Of a stretch of DNA of 64,000 bases, positions 13,597 through 46,978 are shown piece by piece. Position 1 is the stretch's first letter; each line of letters begins with the position of its first letter. This DNA is from Paraglaciecola polaris LMG 21857 (GTDB lineage Bacteria > Pseudomonadota > Gammaproteobacteria > Enterobacterales > Alteromonadaceae). Position numbers and translations under genes: made by a program. The DNA lies in the NCBI RefSeq assembly GCF_000315055.1, contig NZ_BAER01000035.1, positions 1-64,000 on the forward strand. The letters are read 5' to 3'. Under the pieces are notes generated by a model, which worked only from the letters and a program-made list of their open reading frames with translations, had not been told where the DNA came from and did no database searches.

Positions 13597-13665
13597 CAGG
13601 TTAATCACGTTTGATTGCATTATCCCCAACCGTTGTTTAGGTGGGTAAAGGATTTCGTTAGGCCC

Positions 13666-14313
13666 ATGCGTTTTTTTTGTTTCATCATTACTACAGTGTT
13701 GTTTTTATTCCTGTTACGTGCGGTAGCGGATAGCAATATTGTATTTAATGACGCGCTGTTTAACAAAATTCGTGATCAATACGATGACGACGCCCTTGAG
13801 CGCGTGCAGAACTGGCAACAGTTGTTGAACGACAGCCACGCCCTGCCCATTGATGAAAAACTCTACCAAATAAATAACTTCTTTAATGAACTTGATTTCG
13901 TCGATGACATTGAACATTGGGATCAAGATGACTACTGGGCCACACCGGTAGAGTTTTTAGCCACCCATGGCGGCGACTGCGAAGATTTTGTGATCGCTAA
14001 ATTTTTTAGCTTGAAAGAGCTTGGCGTACCCGCTGAAAAGTTGCGTTTAATGTACGTTACCGCAACCCGCATAAGGCAAGCGCACATGGTGCTGGCCTAC
14101 TACGAAGAACCAAATTCAGTACCCTTGGTACTCGATAATATCAACCGCCGTATTTTACCCGCTTCGCGTAGACGTGATTTGTTGCCAATTTATAGCTTTA
14201 ACGGTGACGGTTTATGGTTGGCGAAAGAGCAAGGCCGTGGGCAAAAAGTGCAGCAAGGGGGCAACAATAATTTATGGAACGATTTAAACAAACGAATGCA
14301 AATGGGCGATTAA
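13666..14313 (+). CDS. lapG: LapG-type periplasmic cysteine protease (transglutaminase-like)
   Basis: Periplasmic bacterial transglutaminase-like cysteine protease. In the Lap system it cuts the N-terminus of a large surface adhesin and releases the cell from the biofilm when c-di-GMP is low. Numbered from ATG 13666, the triad is Cys105 in GGDCEDF, His140 in QAHMV and Asp157 in LVLDN. A signal peptide (MRFFCFIITTVLFLFLLRAVA) follows this ATG, which is why I prefer it to the in-frame TTG at 13615 that would add 17 residues. lapD follows after 21 bases. No LapA-like adhesin or its type I secretion genes are in the window. Confidence 0.88.
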   Translation: MRFFCFIITTVLFLFLLRAVADSNIVFNDALFNKIRDQYDDDALERVQNWQQLLNDSHALPIDEKLYQINNFFNELDFVDDIEHWDQDDYWATPVEFLATHGGDCEDFVIAKFFSLKELGVPAEKLRLMYVTATRIRQAHMVLAYYEEPNSVPLVLDNINRRILPASRRRDLLPIYSFNGDGLWLAKEQGRGQKVQQGGNNNLWNDLNKRMQMGD

Positions 14314-14334
14314 TGATGCGTAAGGAAATCTGTT

Positions 14335-16287
14335 ATGCCGTTGTCTAGACAACTGGGGTTAAGCCTACTGGCTGTGCTGATATTGGTGTTTATTGGTACG
14401 CTTTGGATCAACGTAAACAACACCCGTGATTTCGTCGCTCAGCAGCTCGCGTCACACGCGCAAGACACGGCAACGTCCTTGGGCTTGTCAATCGCACCTT
14501 ACATGGCTGAAGCCGATGACTTGCCTGTGGTTGAAACCATGATGAACGCTATTTTCGACCGAGGCTTTTATCAGAGCATGGTGTTACGTGACGCCAAAAA
14601 ACACATTTTGCTCGAAAAACACAATCCTAATAACGTTGAAGATGTGCCTAAATGGTTTCGGGAAATGCTGCCCCTTGAGCCCCCTGAAAGTGCCACCGAT
14701 ATTAATGACGGCTGGACGATGGCAGGTTCCTTAACCGTAAAAAGCCATCCTGGTTTTGGTTACCAACAATTATGGCAAAACGCGGTGCAAGCATTTTGGA
14801 TGATTTTAGCCGTTTTCATCACAGCGCTGTTGATGTTATATGCCTTGGTCAAAATGATCACCACACCACTGTTGGCGGTGGTAAAACAAGCCGACGCCAT
14901 CAGTCAGCAACAATTCGAGCAAATCAAACAGATACCCCGCACACCAGAGCTCAAACGTATTGTGACGGCAGTTAACCGCATGTCCGCTCAACTGGCTAAA
15001 TTATTTACCCAATTAACCAATCAGGCAGAACGTTACCGTAATTTCGCCTATCAAGATCCATTAACGGGTGTGGCCAATAGACGTGCCTTCGAGCTGGCTT
15101 TTGAGCAACTGTTAGCTGATTCAGAGCAGCACTCTCAAGGCTACTTATTGCTCATCCGATTAACCAGCTTAAATGAAGTCAACAGCGAACAGGGTTATCA
15201 AGCCGGCGACGAATATGTGAAGCTGGTCAGCCAAGAATTAAAAAACGCACTCAAGCAACCCGAACTAAATGGGGTTTTATACCGTGTGTCTGGGGCTGAC
15301 TTTGTTGTCTTGCTTGAAGACGCCGCAAAACAGCCTTGCATTAGCTTCACTCAGGCCATTATTGCCCAGCTAAATGCCATTGAAAAAAGTGAGTATAGAT
15401 TAGGCACTGCACACGTAGGGGTGGGCTCTTTTAGTTTTGGTGATTCACGAACCGATGTATTAGAGCGCGCTGACACGGCATTATCTGGCGCCAGTGTAAA
15501 CAGCGAAAAATGGCAACTGGCCCAGCAACATGATGTGCAACACAGTAATACCCAGTGGCGCACTCAGTTGAATGCCATTTTACAGCAGAACCACGCGGAT
15601 TTTGTCGCCCAACCGATCAAAAACCACAAAGGCGACACATTATACGCTGAGTGGTTTGCCCGTTTTAGTACCGGCCAAGCGCAGGGCTATTTACCCATGG
15701 GACAATTGGTCCCGGCATCGGTGCGACTGAACTATGCTCAAAAATTAGATGAACTGCTGATTGCCAGTGCCCTCGCCCAACTAAATGACACACCACATGT
15801 CATTGGTTTGAATGTGTCCCGTTTATCCCTTAGCCAAGCAAGCTTTCATCAATGGTTAATGAATACTCTACCCCAAGATGGTGCGACGTGCGCCAAGCTG
15901 GTGCTAGAAATACCTGAGCGTGCGCTTGTTAACGGCACCCAAGACCTCGTCCATTTTATTGGGCAGTTAAAATCTCGCGGCGTGCGAATCACTGTTGAGC
16001 GGTTTGGCGCACAATTAGCCGCGATCACCCATTTACGTAAAATTCGCCCCGATTATTTGAAACTAGATGGCCGCTTTGTTCGTAATATACATAACGAACC
16101 GGATAATCAGCTATTTGTGCAGTCGCTGGTTAATATTGCCCATGGGCTAAATATTCAGGTGATTGCCGAAATGGTCGAGTGTGATGCAGAGGCGCAGTGT
16201 TTGCTGGACTTGTTTGTAGACTACTTACAGGGCTATCACATTGGTATGCCTACCGATACCAGCGTATCGACTTCAAACGTTAGCTAA
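14335..16287 (+). CDS. lapD: LapD-type c-di-GMP receptor (degenerate GGDEF-EAL)
   Basis: Inner-membrane receptor of 650 residues. A first span (residues 6-25) is followed by a periplasmic LapD/MoxY-type sensor with the W-x-x-x-FREM region, a second span near 152-178 and a HAMP segment. A GGDEF domain and an EAL domain complete it. Both output domains lack catalytic residues: SGADF (319-323) replaces GGDEF and EWF (439-441) replaces EAL, as expected for a binding-only receptor. In known systems c-di-GMP-bound LapD sequesters LapG in the periplasm. The tight linkage to lapG supports the call. Confidence 0.9.
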   Translation: MPLSRQLGLSLLAVLILVFIGTLWINVNNTRDFVAQQLASHAQDTATSLGLSIAPYMAEADDLPVVETMMNAIFDRGFYQSMVLRDAKKHILLEKHNPNNVEDVPKWFREMLPLEPPESATDINDGWTMAGSLTVKSHPGFGYQQLWQNAVQAFWMILAVFITALLMLYALVKMITTPLLAVVKQADAISQQQFEQIKQIPRTPELKRIVTAVNRMSAQLAKLFTQLTNQAERYRNFAYQDPLTGVANRRAFELAFEQLLADSEQHSQGYLLLIRLTSLNEVNSEQGYQAGDEYVKLVSQELKNALKQPELNGVLYRVSGADFVVLLEDAAKQPCISFTQAIIAQLNAIEKSEYRLGTAHVGVGSFSFGDSRTDVLERADTALSGASVNSEKWQLAQQHDVQHSNTQWRTQLNAILQQNHADFVAQPIKNHKGDTLYAEWFARFSTGQAQGYLPMGQLVPASVRLNYAQKLDELLIASALAQLNDTPHVIGLNVSRLSLSQASFHQWLMNTLPQDGATCAKLVLEIPERALVNGTQDLVHFIGQLKSRGVRITVERFGAQLAAITHLRKIRPDYLKLDGRFVRNIHNEPDNQLFVQSLVNIAHGLNIQVIAEMVECDAEAQCLLDLFVDYLQGYHIGMPTDTSVSTSNVS

Positions 16288-16316
16288 AAATGGAGTCCTA
16301 TTAACTAAATAACGAC

Positions 16317-16350
16317 CGCTAATATTTATAAGCCTTTATAAATATTAGCG
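16317..16350 (+). repeat. Perfect 15-bp hairpin after lapD
   Basis: Arms 16317-16331 and 16336-16350 (CGCTAATATTTATAA and its complement) enclose the 4-base loop GCCT. The stem is A/T-rich and has no T-run after it. It lies 30 bases after the lapD stop. It may be a weak terminator or an mRNA 3'-end stabiliser. Confidence 0.65.
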
Positions 16351-16526
16351 AAATAGTCAGCTAACCGTTACTTGATCGTTAATAATGACCATTAGCAAAT
16401 CACTGAAAAGGTACGTTTTTTTACCTGGTCGACCTTAGTCTAATGTTGCTTTTTCAGTCAACTAAACTTATCATCCCAGTGTTGTTAGTGAGATCCACGC
16501 TCACACACTTATATATTGGAGCTTTT

Positions 16527-17195
16527 ATGCGACGTTTACTCATTTCCTTATTGTTGTCTGGTGTCATGATTGCACCTGTCGCGCTAGCACAGCAGGCTGG
16601 GGTAAAAAATCAGCCAGCACAGATAAATGCTGAACAGCCCGCTACAAAAGCTGCGCAACCTGACGAGCCGCAAAACATATTGTTTGGTGATGACAAGCAA
16701 CCAGGTCGCACTATCCATTTAAAAATAATCGAGTTAACCACCAGTGGTATTGCCTTAAATGACGCGGTAGAGCAAACGATTGCCAATGTCACTCGGGAAG
16801 AGGATGCTTTATTGAGCGGCACGGCTAGGTTAGTGGTGGGCTTGAATAAAGGAATTAGTGCCAATTTCATGCGCAACATGGTGAATTTCAATAAATTAAC
16901 CGATACCACCAAAGGCTCAATCGAAACATTTCCAGGCGATGCTGCCAACATTATTCAGCTTGCGGTAACGCTTTACCCTAGTTTTGCCCAAGACGTCATC
17001 GACGCCGCTATTACGACCGGTGAAGTCGAGCCCAATGATGCGTTATTGGCCGCTATTGCTGCAGGTGCGGATCCAACTACTGTATCTTCCGCTACAGCTG
17101 CGGGTGGTAATGTTGCTGTTGCTGGTGTCCCTGCGGGCGCAGGTGTCGGTGCTGGCGGTGCTGGCGGTGGCGATACCACTGCCTCAACGAACTAG
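16527..17195 (+). CDS. Secreted protein of unknown function with Ala/Gly-rich tail
   Basis: I do not recognise this family. A Sec signal peptide (RRLLISLLLSGVMIAPVALAQ) is followed by a low-complexity Gln/Ala/Pro segment. A folded-looking core of about 110 residues (ILFGDDKQPGRTIHLKIIEL onward) comes next. The last 45 residues are almost only Ala, Gly, Val and Thr (AGVPAGAGVGAGGAGGGD). ATG at 16527 is chosen because GGAG lies 5 bases upstream and the signal peptide begins there; a longer frame starts at 16443. It has its own strong terminator. Position between lapGD and an EPS ligase-like gene suggests an extracytoplasmic matrix or EPS role, which is inference only. Confidence 0.75.
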   Translation: MRRLLISLLLSGVMIAPVALAQQAGVKNQPAQINAEQPATKAAQPDEPQNILFGDDKQPGRTIHLKIIELTTSGIALNDAVEQTIANVTREEDALLSGTARLVVGLNKGISANFMRNMVNFNKLTDTTKGSIETFPGDAANIIQLAVTLYPSFAQDVIDAAITTGEVEPNDALLAAIAAGADPTTVSSATAAGGNVAVAGVPAGAGVGAGGAGGGDTTASTN

Positions 17196-26994: not shown

Positions 26995-29733
26995 TTACTC
27001 ATTTTCACTCGGCTTATAAATTTTAAACTCTCCACCAGCATGCAAAAGACCAAACATATGCAATAAACCATCGTAGTAACGATACATGCCTGTTGGCGCA
27101 TCCTGCTGCCACAAGTAATTTAACATTTCGGTGGAAAACGGGTTTTCACTAATAGATGCGCCCACGCCGTTCATTGCGGTGCGTCCGTGGCTGCGATAAT
27201 CAATACCTGGCTCTCTCGTACCATCGACTTCGTAAACCGCAATGAAGTCTCCGTATTGCTGTACTTCACTTTCGAAGAAACTGACTTGGCGCTCAACCAA
27301 TGCTTTTAACTCTGATGATTGACTGACCCAATGGTAATCCATGGCCATATTGCCCATTACACGAAATGAGTCATAAGCACTTTTATGACTATCAGGATTG
27401 AAGCTTGTGGGCTGCGGTAAGCCGTCATGGCTTGCATAATCACTGAACAAACCCGTTTGTAGATGGGCCGCTTTTAGTAAGTACTGGCGACTGATTTCAG
27501 CGGTTTCATGCCAATAATCGTTGTTTTCATCTGCCCACAAAGCCCACATTTCATAGAATGCGGGTAAGTGATATGACGGATCAGAGAAACTTTCCACGTT
27601 GGTGGTGGTAACAAACTCCACTTGTTGATAAACAGGATGCATCATTAGCCGCGTGCTGCTGTTATCAGATTTAGTAAAAATCATGTCATGGAGTATGTCA
27701 TTCGCTTCTTGCTGGTAATCAAATATACCTTCGCGACTTCCCCAGCGATTATTCGCAAGGAATAGCGCCATCGCAAAATATTCTTCGCCATCAGGTGCAG
27801 GGTTAGTATCGATAGCGATGTAAGGCGCATTTGCGCTCAACCGCCACGCGAAAAAGTCTTTGCTGCTACCGGTCTTGTTTTGCATTTTCGCTTTAGTGAA
27901 GCGCCACAATTTGTCGAAGGTATCTTGATCGTTCATCATTACAGAAATCATCATGCCGTATGACATGCCTTCTGAGCGAATATCATCAGAATCAATGGCT
28001 TTAATAAATGCCATATCATCACCGACACCAAACAACACACTAGTGTCAGATAATTCAGGTACAGGCTGACTTGGCATGTCCCCAGCGATGAAAAAATTGT
28101 CGACTTGTATATCTTGCGACACGTCAGCCGCTTTGCCATTAGCAACAAATTGCACTCCAATACCGCGCAACTGACTAAAGTCGAAAGCATCACTGATGTA
28201 GCCAAAGTCGCTATTAGCGCCCACGTGACTAAATCTTAGGGTGACAAATTCATCCGCCGTGAACCCCGCCACCATGGTGTACCCCAAATAAGCAGGTTGA
28301 TAATTGGCGTCTTCTAAAAAGAGTTGTAGCGCCATATTGCCATCTTGCACATAAGCAGATGGTAGTTTGATATCAAAACTGATATCTCGGCCTTCGTTTA
28401 TATCTAACGCTGGGAATTGCTGGTACTTGACTGTAAATGCATCGTTTTCGGTAAGCCAATTTGGTTTGATTGCCAAAACATTATTATTTGCGCTATCAAT
28501 TTCGTCTGCACTAATATTACGCACCGACAGACTAGGCGCAATAACACTCCCGTTATCGACTGACACGTTCCATTGGCCTAGCCCTTCATCAAACGAATCC
28601 TCGAAGCCTGGACTGGTATCACTGCCGTCTAAACTTGGGGGTTGGTAAATACTTACTTGTGAAACGCCTATTTCTCCACCGACTTCAGTACTTTTGCCAT
28701 TACTTAAAAACTGAAAGCCAAGTTTCGCTACATGACTAAAATCAAATCCTTGTGAAAGATAACCAAAGTTTGTATCAGGCCCCACGCCATTAACCGAGAT
28801 GGCGTTTGTCGCAGATTGCGTTAATGCACGATAAGCGAAAAAACCTATCCCACCAGATGTGCCTTGAATAAATAGTTGAACCGCCATCATGCCATCATCG
28901 GCATATGCCTGAGCAATCCCCATCTCATACTCTACGTTTACCCCTTCGGTAGTATCTATCGGGGTAAAATTATTCGACACAACGGCCAATGTATCGCCGT
29001 TGCTTTGCCACGAAGGAGTGATAATCAGGGCACCTTCTCTTTGCGATAATTTAGCATCAACTTGTGTGCCGTTGTCAGCATACCATTGCCAATTTTCAGT
29101 GTTTTCTGCAAAACCAGCATTATAAACTCGCTCACCTCGGCTAACTTCTGGTGGCTCTTGATCTGGCATCAACTCAAACAATTGCTGATAAGTGGCATTA
29201 ATTTTGGCCGTGACCTGTTCTTGTGTCGCTAAGCCTCGCTCGACAAAATAATTATTGTACTGTCCAGTATGGTAAGCAGAGCCTGACGAGAAATCATCAC
29301 TGATCCTATTCCCCATTTGCTGATAATCTATCTGCCAGTTAAAGTCATTCTCATTGAATCTGACTCTTCGGTTCTGAATGAGAACGAAGGGAGTTCCAAG
29401 CTCCAATGAACTATTGGCCGCAATATCGTCAGCGTGCAGCGACCCCGTCACAATATTCGAATTGGGATTAGACGACGTAACATCAATAACTACGTCTTGT
29501 ACTGGGCCAGCGTCGTTTTTAAGCATCACTAGAAACTCATAGCGATAATCACTGCGCCCTACCCGACTTTTACTTTTTAATGTTAACCCTTCAACACTGA
29601 CTTCGCCGTATGACAAGGTACTAATTGACGAGCACAAGACTGTCCCCAGAGCGAGAAGAATGCCTTTGCTGACGACACTTGGCTTCATAGAAGGAGTTAC
29701 GCTGGTGTATTCATTCAAAGGAGTGGTTTTCAT
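26995..29733 (-). CDS. Glycoside hydrolase family 8, with two beta-sandwich modules inside the catalytic domain
   Basis: A 912-residue secreted enzyme. The residues around E588 (RSEGMSYGMMISV) and D788 (AYDSFRVMGNMAMDY) match the general acid and base of GH8 enzymes of the reducing-end xylose-releasing exo-oligoxylanase (Rex) type. DPSYHLPAFYEMW and TGMYRYYDGLLHMFGLL also fit. The usual first helix of that domain (TGQYNNYFVERGLATQEQV, about 156-188) lies 375 residues earlier. Between them are two homologous beta-sandwich modules (about 200-372 and 383-553) that share AYxxDGxMAxQLF and NGKxxxV. A further N-terminal domain spans 45-150. AAAGGAG precedes ATG 29733. Substrate could be the cell's own EPS or an external xylan-like glycan. 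Confidence 0.87.
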   Translation of the reverse strand: MKTTPLNEYTSVTPSMKPSVVSKGILLALGTVLCSSISTLSYGEVSVEGLTLKSKSRVGRSDYRYEFLVMLKNDAGPVQDVVIDVTSSNPNSNIVTGSLHADDIAANSSLELGTPFVLIQNRRVRFNENDFNWQIDYQQMGNRISDDFSSGSAYHTGQYNNYFVERGLATQEQVTAKINATYQQLFELMPDQEPPEVSRGERVYNAGFAENTENWQWYADNGTQVDAKLSQREGALIITPSWQSNGDTLAVVSNNFTPIDTTEGVNVEYEMGIAQAYADDGMMAVQLFIQGTSGGIGFFAYRALTQSATNAISVNGVGPDTNFGYLSQGFDFSHVAKLGFQFLSNGKSTEVGGEIGVSQVSIYQPPSLDGSDTSPGFEDSFDEGLGQWNVSVDNGSVIAPSLSVRNISADEIDSANNNVLAIKPNWLTENDAFTVKYQQFPALDINEGRDISFDIKLPSAYVQDGNMALQLFLEDANYQPAYLGYTMVAGFTADEFVTLRFSHVGANSDFGYISDAFDFSQLRGIGVQFVANGKAADVSQDIQVDNFFIAGDMPSQPVPELSDTSVLFGVGDDMAFIKAIDSDDIRSEGMSYGMMISVMMNDQDTFDKLWRFTKAKMQNKTGSSKDFFAWRLSANAPYIAIDTNPAPDGEEYFAMALFLANNRWGSREGIFDYQQEANDILHDMIFTKSDNSSTRLMMHPVYQQVEFVTTTNVESFSDPSYHLPAFYEMWALWADENNDYWHETAEISRQYLLKAAHLQTGLFSDYASHDGLPQPTSFNPDSHKSAYDSFRVMGNMAMDYHWVSQSSELKALVERQVSFFESEVQQYGDFIAVYEVDGTREPGIDYRSHGRTAMNGVGASISENPFSTEMLNYLWQQDAPTGMYRYYDGLLHMFGLLHAGGEFKIYKPSENE

Positions 29734-30338
29734 GGGGCTTCTCCTTTACCGATCATAAGCGCGTGTTGATTGCGACTATTCTTGCTCGCCTGACGGGATC
29801 TTCTTGACGTTACAAAAACGAGGCCAAATATACAGACACTTATCAAATACAATGCCACCCCACTTGGCGCGTTAACGGCTTGTACTTTATTAAGTTGGAA
29901 TTGACCTGCACTTGTCACAGCAAATGTATTGGCATCATACGTTTCAAAGCGCTGTATCGTTCCCAGTGCATCTAATGCCCCTAGCCAATCAAACATAACT
30001 GACATGCCGCTTAAAGTTTCACCCGCAAGTAAAGGAGAGGCAAGTGCAAGGCCATCAACGAAACCGTCTTCCTGAAAGCCAAATATGTCTTGTGCCGGCG
30101 CAACAAACATATCCCAATCGATGGGACTGCTTAACAGCGCTAGGTTGTCGAATAACCCATATTCGAAATATACGATAAGTCCATCAATGCTACTTTGACC
30201 ATCGTTGTAAAATTGATAGTTCGCTTGATATTGTTGATCGTTTAATTTAGTTACATCAGTGCGAACCAGCAGCGCTTTGGCATCTAAGCTGCTAAATAGA
30301 AGGGTGGTTGTAAGAGCCAAGAACAGTATTATTTTCAT
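29730..30338 (-). CDS. Secreted protein with PEP-CTERM-like C-terminal sorting tail
   Basis: A 202-residue protein of unknown function. A signal peptide (ILFLALTTTLLFSSLDAKA) precedes a beta-rich middle part (QYQANYQFYNDGQSSIDGLIVYFEYGLF). The C-terminus is tripartite: VNAPSG, a hydrophobic segment ALYLISVCIFGLVFV and an Arg/Lys-rich end. This is the PEP-CTERM architecture with a variant motif and an unusually long tail of about 25 residues. PEP-CTERM proteins are processed by exosortases in EPS-producing Gram-negatives; no exosortase is in the window. Its stop overlaps the hydrolase start (ATGA), so the two are translationally coupled. AGAGGAATTAG precedes ATG 30338. Confidence 0.72.
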   Translation of the reverse strand: MKIILFLALTTTLLFSSLDAKALLVRTDVTKLNDQQYQANYQFYNDGQSSIDGLIVYFEYGLFDNLALLSSPIDWDMFVAPAQDIFGFQEDGFVDGLALASPLLAGETLSGMSVMFDWLGALDALGTIQRFETYDANTFAVTSAGQFQLNKVQAVNAPSGVALYLISVCIFGLVFVTSRRSRQASKNSRNQHALMIGKGEAP

Positions 30339-44027: not shown

Positions 44028-45776
44028 ATGAATTCGTTTACTCGGCAGTTTCCTGAGTCATTACCACGTCGCCGCTTTGTGCAAGGATTGGCAATCGGCG
44101 GAGTATTGACCTCGGTTCCCACGGTATTACACGGCGCGCCTCGCTCTCAGGACTTAACCTCGACAGGTTATGCACCACAACTGAGTGGCAAGACTATTAA
44201 TTTGGAAATTGGCGCTGCCCCTGTCAATTTCACCGGTGTTGTGCGTATGGGAACCACCATAAATGGCTCTATTCCTGCGCCAACGATTCGTCTCGTTGAA
44301 GGCGACGAAGTTACTATTAATGTAACAAACCGCTTGAACGTGCCGAGTTCCATTCATTGGCATGGCATTATTCTGCCTTACCAGATGGACGGTGTGCCAG
44401 GTTTGAGTTACCCCGGTATTATGCCGGGTGAAACCTTCACCTACCGCTTCACCTTAAAACAAAGCGGCACATATTGGTATCACTCTCACAGTGGCTTTCA
44501 AGAAATGACCGGCATGTATGGCGCGTTAATTATCGAGCCAAGAGAAACCGACATTATTCACAGCGATCGGGATCTTGTGGTGCAGTTATCTGACTGGACA
44601 GATGAAAACCCCATGCAAGTGTTTGGTAAGTTGAAAACCCAAAGTGATTATTACAATTTCAATCAACCCACAGTTCAAGACTTTGTTAGAGATGTAGCAA
44701 AGAATGGCCTTAACAGTGCACTCGCTAACCGAAAAATGTGGAATGAAATGCGCATGAGTCCCACAGACTTGGCTGATTTGTCAAACGCCACATTGACCTA
44801 TCTGATGAATGGCACAACCCCCATGGGCAATTGGCATGGTATCTTCAAACCCGGTGAAAAAGTGCGTTTGCGCTTTATTAATGGCTCAAGCAATAGCTTT
44901 TTCGATGTGCGCATTCCTGAATTAAAAATGACTGTTGTTCAGGCTGATGGACAAAACATTGAGCCGGTCAGCGTCGATGAATTTCGTTTTGGCCCGGGAG
45001 AAACCTATGACGTCATTGTGCAACCTAAAAATGATGCCTACACCCTGTTTGCGCAAAGCATGGACCGTAGTGGCTACGCCCGTGGCACGCTAGCCATAGC
45101 AGAAAGTCTAGACGCCCCGGTTCCGGCACTGGATCCGGTGGAATGGCTCACCATGTCTGACATGATGGGCGATATGTCAAACATGTCAGCGATGAACTCG
45201 TCAACGGATCATAGCCAACACAATATGCAAAGTGGCTCTTTGGCTGTCGCATCAAGCACGGTGCGCCATGCCAGCACCGAATATGGCCCGTCGGTAGACA
45301 TGCGCGTCGATACGCCACGTACTAATTTAGACGACCCAGGTATTGGCTTAAGAAAGAACGGACGCCGGGTACTCACCTTAGCGGATTTGCATTCTCTGGC
45401 TGGTATTACCGACCACCGTGAGCCGGAGGCAGAAATAGAGCTGCATTTAACGGGCAATATGGAACGCTACAGCTGGTCAATTGATGGACTCGAATTCGGC
45501 GAAAGTACACCGGTACATATGAAGCACAATCAACGTGTCAGGGTCATTTTGCAAAATGACACTATGATGACGCACCCGATGCACTTACATGGGATGTGGA
45601 GTGATTTAGAAAACCAACAATCGGCAGTGCAAGTAAGAAGACACACTATTCCGGTACAACCGGCACAGCGAATTAGCTTCTTAACGACGCCTCATGATGT
45701 GGGCCGCTGGGCTTGGCATTGTCATCTTTTATTTCATATGGACGCGGGCATGTTCCGTGAAGTGGTGGTCGCATGA
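44028..45776 (+). CDS. copA: CopA multicopper oxidase
   Basis: A 582-residue periplasmic copper-resistance oxidase. The N-terminus has a twin-arginine signal (RRRFVQGLAIGG). Copper ligands appear as SSIHWHGI, YWYHSHSG, HPMHLHG and AWHCHLLFHMDAGM, the four blocks of the type 1, 2 and 3 centres. A methionine-rich insert (MSDMMGDMSNMSAMN, about residues 375-400) is typical of CopA. It oxidises and sequesters Cu(I) in the periplasm. Its stop overlaps the copB start by 4 bases. Expression is expected to depend on the operator at 43931. Confidence 0.95.
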   Translation: MNSFTRQFPESLPRRRFVQGLAIGGVLTSVPTVLHGAPRSQDLTSTGYAPQLSGKTINLEIGAAPVNFTGVVRMGTTINGSIPAPTIRLVEGDEVTINVTNRLNVPSSIHWHGIILPYQMDGVPGLSYPGIMPGETFTYRFTLKQSGTYWYHSHSGFQEMTGMYGALIIEPRETDIIHSDRDLVVQLSDWTDENPMQVFGKLKTQSDYYNFNQPTVQDFVRDVAKNGLNSALANRKMWNEMRMSPTDLADLSNATLTYLMNGTTPMGNWHGIFKPGEKVRLRFINGSSNSFFDVRIPELKMTVVQADGQNIEPVSVDEFRFGPGETYDVIVQPKNDAYTLFAQSMDRSGYARGTLAIAESLDAPVPALDPVEWLTMSDMMGDMSNMSAMNSSTDHSQHNMQSGSLAVASSTVRHASTEYGPSVDMRVDTPRTNLDDPGIGLRKNGRRVLTLADLHSLAGITDHREPEAEIELHLTGNMERYSWSIDGLEFGESTPVHMKHNQRVRVILQNDTMMTHPMHLHGMWSDLENQQSAVQVRRHTIPVQPAQRISFLTTPHDVGRWAWHCHLLFHMDAGMFREVVVA

Positions 45777-46978
45777 TAAATCCTCTAAACACGCTTTCAG
45801 CTGCGGGTATCTTATTCTCTTGCAGTGCTTTGCTGACCAGCCAAAACGTTGAGGCGCAGCAATATTCTGAGCAGAGCGCCGCTGCACAAGAGCAGGCATC
45901 TGGCGCAATGGATCACAGTAAGATGGCCCATAGCAAGATGGATATGGACGCCACGGATCAAGACGCCATGGATCAAGACGCAATGGATCACAGCAAGATG
46001 GACCATAGCAAGATGAACATGGACGCCATGGATCAAGGCACTATGGATCACAGTAAGATGGACCATAGCAAGATGGACATGGACGCCATGGATCAAGGCA
46101 CTATGGATCACAGTAAGATGAACCATAGCGAGATGGACATGGACGCCACGGACCAAAGCACCATGGATCACAGCAATATGGACATGGACGCCATGGATCA
46201 AGGTGCAATGGATCACAGTGCAATGAAAATGCAACCTCAAGGCGGGGAGGCACCCGCGAATGCTCGCGATCCCCATGCTTATTCATCAGGTTATACCTTA
46301 ACGGACGGGCCCTATGCGCTGGCTATCCCGAAGCGACTTACCTTAGCGGACGAACACAGCTTTTGGTCAGTATTAGGTGACCGACTAGAGTACAACAACG
46401 ATGAAAACAGTACTGTCTATGACGTGCAAGGGTGGTATGGCACTACTTTTGAGCGTGCAGTCGTAAAAGCAGAAGGCGACGTCGTTCAAGGCCAGCTAGT
46501 AGAAAGTCAGACTGAGCTGCTCTGGTCCCATGCGTTTGCTGCTTATTGGGATACCCAGTTAGGCATTAGATATGATCAATTTGATGAAGGTGAAGATCGC
46601 CGTTGGTTAGCATTTGGCTTTCAAGGCCTTGCCCCTTATTGGTTTGAAGTCGATGTCAGTGCTTATTTAGGTGAGAATGGCCGTACAGCAGTGTCTGCTG
46701 AAGCAGAATACGAGTTGCTTCTCACCCAACGTTGGGTATTGCAGAGTCGCGTTGAAATGAGTCTGAACGGCAAAGATGACGAAATAAATGGCGTGGGGAA
46801 AGGACTATCGTCCCTTAGCGCAGGCCTGCGTTTACGCTATGAATTTTCACGCCAATTCGCGCCCTATGTCGGCATAGAATGGACACAGAAATACGGTAAC
46901 AGCGCTGACTTTGCCCGAGCACGGGATGAAGAAGCCAGCAACACCAGTGTGGTAGCCGGATTGCGCTTTTGGTTTTAA
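45773..46978 (+). CDS. copB: CopB outer-membrane copper-resistance protein with long Met/His/Asp repeat
   Basis: A 401-residue protein. A signal peptide is followed by an N-terminal metal-binding region (about residues 46-152) built from MDHSKM-type units. The C-terminal 230 residues form the CopB outer-membrane beta-barrel (ending VVAGLRFWF) with SFWSVLGDRLEYNN at its start. The repeat shows a 20-residue (60-base) period with about four to five copies, longer than in the plasmid-borne CopB I recall. Translational coupling to copA (ATGA) is clear. Confidence 0.93.
   Translation: MINPLNTLSAAGILFSCSALLTSQNVEAQQYSEQSAAAQEQASGAMDHSKMAHSKMDMDATDQDAMDQDAMDHSKMDHSKMNMDAMDQGTMDHSKMDHSKMDMDAMDQGTMDHSKMNHSEMDMDATDQSTMDHSNMDMDAMDQGAMDHSAMKMQPQGGEAPANARDPHAYSSGYTLTDGPYALAIPKRLTLADEHSFWSVLGDRLEYNNDENSTVYDVQGWYGTTFERAVVKAEGDVVQGQLVESQTELLWSHAFAAYWDTQLGIRYDQFDEGEDRRWLAFGFQGLAPYWFEVDVSAYLGENGRTAVSAEAEYELLLTQRWVLQSRVEMSLNGKDDEINGVGKGLSSLSAGLRLRYEFSRQFAPYVGIEWTQKYGNSADFARARDEEASNTSVVAGLRFWF
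45908..46230 (+). repeat. 60-base tandem repeat inside copB
   Basis: Repeating units encode about 20 residues of the form MDHSKM-DHSKM-DMDAMDQGT. The three central copies are close to identical at nucleotide level, and the outer copies are shortened or variant. A repeat of this kind can change copy number by slippage or recombination, altering copper-binding capacity. Confidence 0.85.

Follow-up and report, generated by a model that had tools for sequence, protein, structure and literature searches.

A GH8 barrel parted after its first helix by two tandem CBM-like modules in Paraglaciecola polaris

The question at this locus is whether the catalytic domain of a secreted GH8 enzyme is interrupted, after its first barrel helix, by two homologous beta-sandwich modules, and what modules in such a place would do. 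The gene lies in a 64,000-nucleotide stretch of Paraglaciecola polaris LMG 21857 (contig NZ_BAER01000035.1), here called the window. Its parts, and the gene next to it, are as follows.

26995..29733, minus strand: secreted GH8 enzyme of 912 residues whose catalytic domain is split; orthologous to XynB from Glaciecola mesophila KMM241
29605..29733, minus strand: signal peptide region, residues 1-43 (alignment with XynB, Glu44 matching; pLDDT 26-33)
29314..29604, minus strand: N-terminal beta-domain (residues 44-140) that is not part of the GH8 fold (strands, pLDDT 72-91, homologues in non-GH8 proteins)
29173..29277, minus strand: region of GH8 barrel helix alpha-1, residues 153-187 (alignment, helix-1 HMM, model helices)
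28636..29136, minus strand: inserted CBM-like beta-sandwich module M1, residues 200-366 (homology to M2, module HMM, model, module tree)
28075..28617, minus strand: inserted CBM-like beta-sandwich module M2, residues 373-553 (own model, Foldseek match to CBM11)
28036..28074, minus strand: residues 554-566, the insert's C-terminal linker, which contains Pro (pLDDT <50 over 553-561)
27010..28035, minus strand: remaining GH8 barrel, helices alpha-2 to alpha-12, residues 567-908 (acid E588, base D788, conserved D648)
29730..30338, minus strand: partner gene directly upstream, overlapping by 4 bases, with a PEP-CTERM-like end

PF01270 (GH8) matches residues 585-899 (E 6.1e-28, 98.3 bits against a cut-off of 24) and is the only Pfam family to match the 912-residue protein at E <= 1; residues 42-368 searched alone matched no Pfam family. 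All 35 PDB sequence matches at E <= 0.1 have their best stretch from residue 563 onward, and xylanases and Rex enzymes of GH8 lead the list. Counted on the PDB alignment, the TtGH8 residues Glu73 and Asp281 correspond to E588 and D788, and both are invariant in 26 of 26 rows (nine split proteins and 17 uninterrupted GH8s). The catalytic acid is on alpha-2 and the base at an end of alpha-8, as in GH8. The first-pass annotation had likened the first helix to that of Rex-type GH8 enzymes; the label is apt for the nearest solved fold, Rex8A, but not for activity, since the orthologue XynB is a strict endo-xylanase (Guo et al. 2013, PMC3705397). Leu-His-Pro is absent at the site aligned with Rex8A; BeRex8A also lacks that loop, and XynB released no xylose. 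We took the signal peptide boundary from the alignment with XynB, for which 43 residues are predicted (PMC3705397). A frameshift or wrong start as the source of the split was ruled out, the gene being a single open frame with the same layout in nine proteins.

We confirmed that the first barrel helix (residues 153-187) is parted from the barrel remainder, which starts at about residue 567, by two beta-sandwich modules. The first-pass annotation had recognised residues 156-188 as this helix, and had placed the VGDD continuation near residue 564 after an interval of 375 residues; the displacement is real, and the figures have been adjusted. TGQYNNYFVERGLATQEQV corresponds to residues 156-174, and the continuation VGDD...DIRSEGMSYGMM begins at residue 570. 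F186, in helix 1, is separated from G571 of VGDD by 384 residues in the query; the interval is 371-386 across the nine split proteins, orthologues that all keep the insert, as against 13-17 in the 17 rows of uninterrupted GH8s. Linkers included, the insert takes up about residues 188-566. When the nine long and 17 uninterrupted proteins are aligned, YNNYFVERGLATQEQVTAKINATYQQLF of the query falls on YRNAFVELGIASPEQVNKKVQDTYQQLF of the uninterrupted GH8s. A helix-1 HMM trained on uninterrupted proteins alone, with no long protein included, matched residues 153-186 of the query at 51.6 bits and nine of nine split proteins at 28.1-56.4 bits. Among 1000 shuffled versions of the query 447 gave any reported match, the top one at 6.0 bits; in the query the best score elsewhere in residues 190-600 was -4.5 bits, and no match was reported in residues 553-912. 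With phmmer, residues of about 141-187 and about 562-910 of the query aligned separately to one and the same frame of 449-531 aa in each of ten proteins (L007-L016), and this pairing recurred in six larger GH8 frames that carry other modules (L030-L035). The helix-1 stretch was found by phmmer in L007-L018, L030-L035, L045, L046 and L048, and not in L019-L021, L047 or L049. Residues 5-38 of 6g00, the best PDB match, also pair with residues 152-186 of the query at just 1.1 bits, which alone proves nothing.

The full-length AlphaFold2 model (mean pLDDT 77.1, pTM 0.53) was built from nine long rows and 11 GH8 rows trimmed to begin near VGDD, so that these uninterrupted relatives, having lost helix 1, were unable to show AlphaFold2 where that helix goes. 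Helices at 162-165 and 171-185 are nevertheless confident, with pLDDT of 94, 95 and 86 in the blocks of residues 161-190. Beyond the insert the model has helices at 587-599, 603-617, 647-664, 673-686, 724-733, 738-755, 789-798, 800-805, 807-827, 849-861, 866-876 and 887-899. We read 789-798 and 800-805 as probably one broken helix, which would give eleven, alpha-2 to alpha-12, with 171-185 as alpha-1. E588 stands at the start of 587-599 and D788 at the start of 789-798; on that count E588 would open alpha-2 and D788 would sit at the start of alpha-8, like TtGH8. Foldseek matched the full-length model to Rex8A at E 1.3e-25 (TMt 0.83). The pLDDT values, the helix count and homology together suggest that helix 1 packs in the barrel. 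A helix after residue 553 filling the helix-1 slot, the alternative that the first-pass annotation had named, was rejected: the model has no helix between 553 and 587, and the HMM has no match there.

A different domain order has been published for the orthologue. The text and figure legend of the XynB paper describe an N-terminal domain of residues 44-584 and, from residue 585, a complete catalytic domain; the N-terminal domain binds insoluble xylan and Avicel, and the authors suggested a CBM of a new type (PMC3705397). Applied to the present protein, this would mean an N-terminal xylan-binding domain at 44-584, a complete catalytic domain at 585-912 and a resemblance to helix 1 that is coincidental. 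The Pfam GH8 match is indeed confined to residues 585-899, but uninterrupted GH8s start alike, so it does not discriminate. On the same ground we do not count it in favour of the split that the match begins at profile position 52: uninterrupted L019, L030 and L031 start at 49-53, and the Pfam start neither supports nor opposes a split. The scores of the helix-1 HMM in all nine split proteins, set against those of shuffled proteins, go against coincidence, as do the confident model helix at 171-185 and the helix-free stretch after 553. So does conservation among the split proteins, in which identity to the query is 52-85% in helix 1, above that of the insert (38-68%) and below that of the catalytic rest (70-94%). 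In the C-terminal linker (554-566) identity is 15-36% in the three most distant orthologues. We regard the ordinary order as hardly credible.

The protein of P. mesophila KMM 241 (L003) is 73% identical to the query with the same architecture, and has Glu44, Arg584, Glu586, Asp646 and Asp786 at XynB's printed positions; it has 910 residues against the 912 given for XynB. The XynB forward primer matches L003 exactly, and both reverse primers were found in L037, not in L003; the primers had been designed on another strain (PMC3705397). Helix 1 of L003 ends with TYEQLF at residues 181-186, within the published N-terminal domain. As that construct takes in both modules together with helix 1 and the N-terminal beta-domain, it does not map the binding to the modules. 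XynB is an orthologue of shared architecture in which the region holding the modules binds xylan and Avicel; neither an interrupted barrel nor nesting nor a homologous pair of modules is mentioned in the available part of its paper (PMC3705397).

The two modules are homologous, as had been proposed: M1 and M2 agree in 50 of 173 columns (29%; pairwise E 1e-27) and share both motifs named in the first-pass annotation (DDGMMAVQLF and QDGNMALQLF; FLSNGKSTEV and FVANGKAADV). M2 modelled alone with 34 rows gave a mean pLDDT of 93.6 and a pTM of 0.90, and its best PDB match by Foldseek is CBM11 (E 2.1e-8, 18% identity). CBM4, CBM22, CBM15, CBM27, CBM28 and CBM30 are among its other matches, along with beta-sandwiches that are not CBMs, such as a viral turret protein, ranked second, and MAM domains. 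A module profile search found one PDB sequence, the mannanase 1pmh (E 4.1e-5), whose module we take to be CBM27. The models indicate that M1 and M2 have a beta-sandwich fold like that of CBMs, which they share with CBM11 and CBM27; they differ in the low identity to CBM11 and in that neither M1 nor M2 matches a Pfam CBM family at E <= 1. PF21253 was matched by seven of the 34 module rows at E <= 1, M2 of the query not being one of them. In three GH10 proteins (L056, L057, L058) the module family HMM detects one or two copies following the catalytic domain; three GH5 proteins (L059, L060, L061) contain three or four there. In L059 and L060 the GH5 domain is followed by four tandem copies, which match PF21253 (mannanase galactose-binding-like) in part. 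In a module tree the M1 and M2 modules of the nine proteins form one group (96/99), which points to a common origin from one module or one pair; M1 is a separate group within the tree (99/98) and M2 is not. Derivation of both from one module or one pair is, on the sequences, the most likely history.

We consider it very probable that this GH8 barrel has been split by a once-inserted, flexibly linked pair of CBM-like modules that can hold insoluble xylan near the active site. The pair was inserted once, in an ancestor of a clade of Alteromonadaceae, and would be tethered by short flexible linkers to the connection between alpha-1 and alpha-2. This connection runs into alpha-2, whose first turn bears the catalytic acid E588. 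The modules would therefore come in from the side of the cleft and could keep insoluble xylan close to the active site. Carbohydrate binding by M1 and M2 on their own is a predicted function. We infer that the binding seen in XynB is due to the modules themselves and not to the N-terminal beta-domain (44-140), and they probably lie by the cleft and feed substrate to the enzyme.

The first-pass annotation had imagined a substrate-presenting lid. The first half of that phrase has partial support, in that the modules look like CBMs and the XynB region containing them binds xylan and Avicel (PMC3705397); the second half has none. The segments flanking the insert in the model, 192-198 and 553-561, have pLDDT below 50, and with a pTM of 0.53 the orientation of the modules is undefined, which suggests flexible tethering. 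Were the insert instead a lid or steric cap, narrowing the cleft and conferring chain-length selectivity and not serving as a carbohydrate-binding device, its entry at the connection preceding the catalytic helix would be apt, as would the aromatic residues at alignment columns 66, 70 and 112, present in nine of nine M2 and missing from most M1. A lid sits poorly with the flexible linkers, with the CBM-like fold and with the occurrence of the same modules in GH10 and GH5 enzymes. It also sits poorly with XynB, whose module-containing region binds insoluble xylan and Avicel and whose kcat and Km on polymeric xylan are near those of the mono-domain rXyn8 (PMC3705397). In GH10 enzymes with nested CBMs the modules act independently of the catalytic site, and by analogy tethered binding modules, not a lid, would be expected here. 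A rigid lid is not supported; flexible modules that bind substrate beside the cleft are the likelier arrangement, and we judge a steric cap to be quite unlikely.

Full-length split genes were found in seven of 22 genomes of the genus (an eighth match there is merely a module of a GH5 protein) and in eight of 246 genomes of the family draw. The order draw (295 genomes) and the class draw (369) yielded one each, in either case the query's own genome. A contig scan returned five relatives, of which four are split, and our comparisons drew on nine distinct split proteins. In a tree of 36 GH8 domains these nine form one clade (100/100) with one change, which indicates one insertion event, and ten uninterrupted proteins (L007-L016) are their sister (branch 97/92). 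The tree omitted L032 (like L031), second copies of proteins already in the set (L006, L038-L040, L043) and distant or partial matches (L005, L024-L029, L050, L051, L053, L054). A recent mobile insertion was rejected on account of the single origin and the retention of the insert in nine split proteins. Eight of the ten sister proteins (L007-L009, L011, L012, L014-L016) begin with LASC or LAAC, which we take to be lipobox-like, of lipoprotein type. Anchoring seems to have changed along with the insertion, the split clade having the N-terminal beta-domain in place of a lipoprotein-like start. Short GH8 pieces were also seen in family genomes, in frames of 119 aa (L051; 60% identical to the query over 70 residues) and 307 aa (L050); these are possibly decayed GH8 genes.

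The surroundings of the gene raise a further alternative. In the window it is convergent with a WcaJ-type transferase gene and lies between an exopolysaccharide locus and DUF3450, ExbB, ExbD and TonB genes. BcsZ trims bacterial cellulose, and the split enzyme might likewise trim the cell's own exopolysaccharide in this genus rather than serve to feed on foreign xylan. The gene does adjoin the WcaJ-type gene of a VpsP-family polysaccharide locus in the window and in L001, L002, L065 and L067 (the L003 contig ends before that position). Yet it is convergent with that gene, on the TonB/ExbD/ExbB side, and is found elsewhere in L063, L064 and L066, in L064 near a tryptophan halogenase gene with a TonB receptor about 6 kb away. 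The genome also has one GH10 match and two GH43 matches, and with cellulose, laminarin, mannan, chitosan or starch as substrate no activity of XynB could be detected (PMC3705397). We rejected exopolysaccharide trimming as the main role and retain it as a rival that is unlikely.

Other features of these neighbourhoods deserve record. Two genes stand between the TonB operon and the partner gene in L002 (4695-7061), L003 (4635-6958), L067 (11286-13648) and L065 (17292-19634), and presumably they resemble ahpC and ahpF; in the window no ORF of at least 120 aa occupies that position. At 45773-46978 the window encodes a protein whose many repeats are rich in Met and His (MDHSKMDMDAMDQ); it lies downstream of a gene at 44028-45776 that we assume to be multicopper-oxidase-like, the two together resembling a copper-handling operon. 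At 13615-17195, beside the VpsP-type exopolysaccharide locus, there are a LapG-like protease (NCBIfam 222 bits, below the cut-off of 320) and a protein of 250 aa that weakly matches LapA retention; the protease's neighbour is presumably a GGDEF/EAL-like protein.

The gene directly upstream is a more constant companion. A homologue of this partner precedes nine of nine split GH8 genes, including those of L063, L064 and L066. The N-terminal beta-domain, searched alone, matched in 15 of the 246 genomes of the family draw, and all 15 have a partner homologue upstream on the same strand (one weak): eight at split GH8 loci and seven others within about 0.7 kb (L101 weak, E 4.4e-5). Conversely, all ten partner matches in the genus adjoin an N-domain frame, of which seven are split GH8s and three are others (L084-L086). 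L084 and L085 are N-domain proteins with MopE, Ig-like and other repeats in place of GH8, and the N-domain frames of L095-L101 are 1216-1450 aa long. The partner ends with APSGVALYLISVCIFGLVFVTSRRSR, and relatives have ends of VPEPS or VPAPA type; several of these tails we take, by motif recognition, to be PEP-CTERM-like. NCBIfam returned no family for the partner at E <= 0.01, and the genome has one exosortase match. We treat a partner/N-domain cassette as a lead, in which the two would place the enzyme at the cell surface. In a bolder proposal the enzyme would serve as catalytic arm in a novel type of gammaproteobacterial surface complex, its N-domain docking onto a co-translated, exosortase-sorted partner and its CBM pair, nested next to the catalytic helix, clamping xylan over the cleft; this is tentative and on balance doubtful.

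Nested CBMs have precedents in other folds, which tempers the first-pass view of an unusual design. Xyn10C-like GH10 xylanases (Pm25) carry two CBM4 modules in tandem within the catalytic domain, with CBMs and catalytic site acting independently, and in the GH13 amylase SusG a CBM58 is inserted in the B domain (PMC7848910). The Pm25-type enzymes resemble ours in having two tandem CBMs of about 160 residues inside a xylanase catalytic domain, a signal peptide and an upstream gene for a xylan-binding protein. They differ in their unrelated catalytic fold, a TIM barrel, in the site of insertion between beta-3 and alpha-3, in the CBM4 family and in belonging to Bacteroidetes. SusG is likewise a surface enzyme with a CBM nested in its catalytic domain, but the CBM is single, the fold GH13 and the substrate starch. 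Rex8A, TtGH8 and PhXyl have the same barrel with conserved catalytic acid and base; their alpha-1/alpha-2 connection is uninterrupted, and Rex8A is an exo-oligoxylanase. The literature searched (titles and abstract openings) describes no CBM nested in GH8, and CBM-like modules nested in a GH8 barrel appear to be an undescribed case.

Our findings revise the domain border of the published XynB: one helix of the barrel is lost if the domain is taken to begin at residue 585, which is relevant to expressing the catalytic domain alone. They also delimit a family of CBM-like modules common to GH8, GH10 and GH5 enzymes of related bacteria. With CBMs nested in GH10 and CBM-like modules in GH8, nesting in xylanases arose independently in two unrelated folds. 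If the surface complex is real, it would be a convergent counterpart of the SusG and Xyn10C systems of Bacteroidetes, and the partner/N-domain cassette would also carry unrelated cargo.
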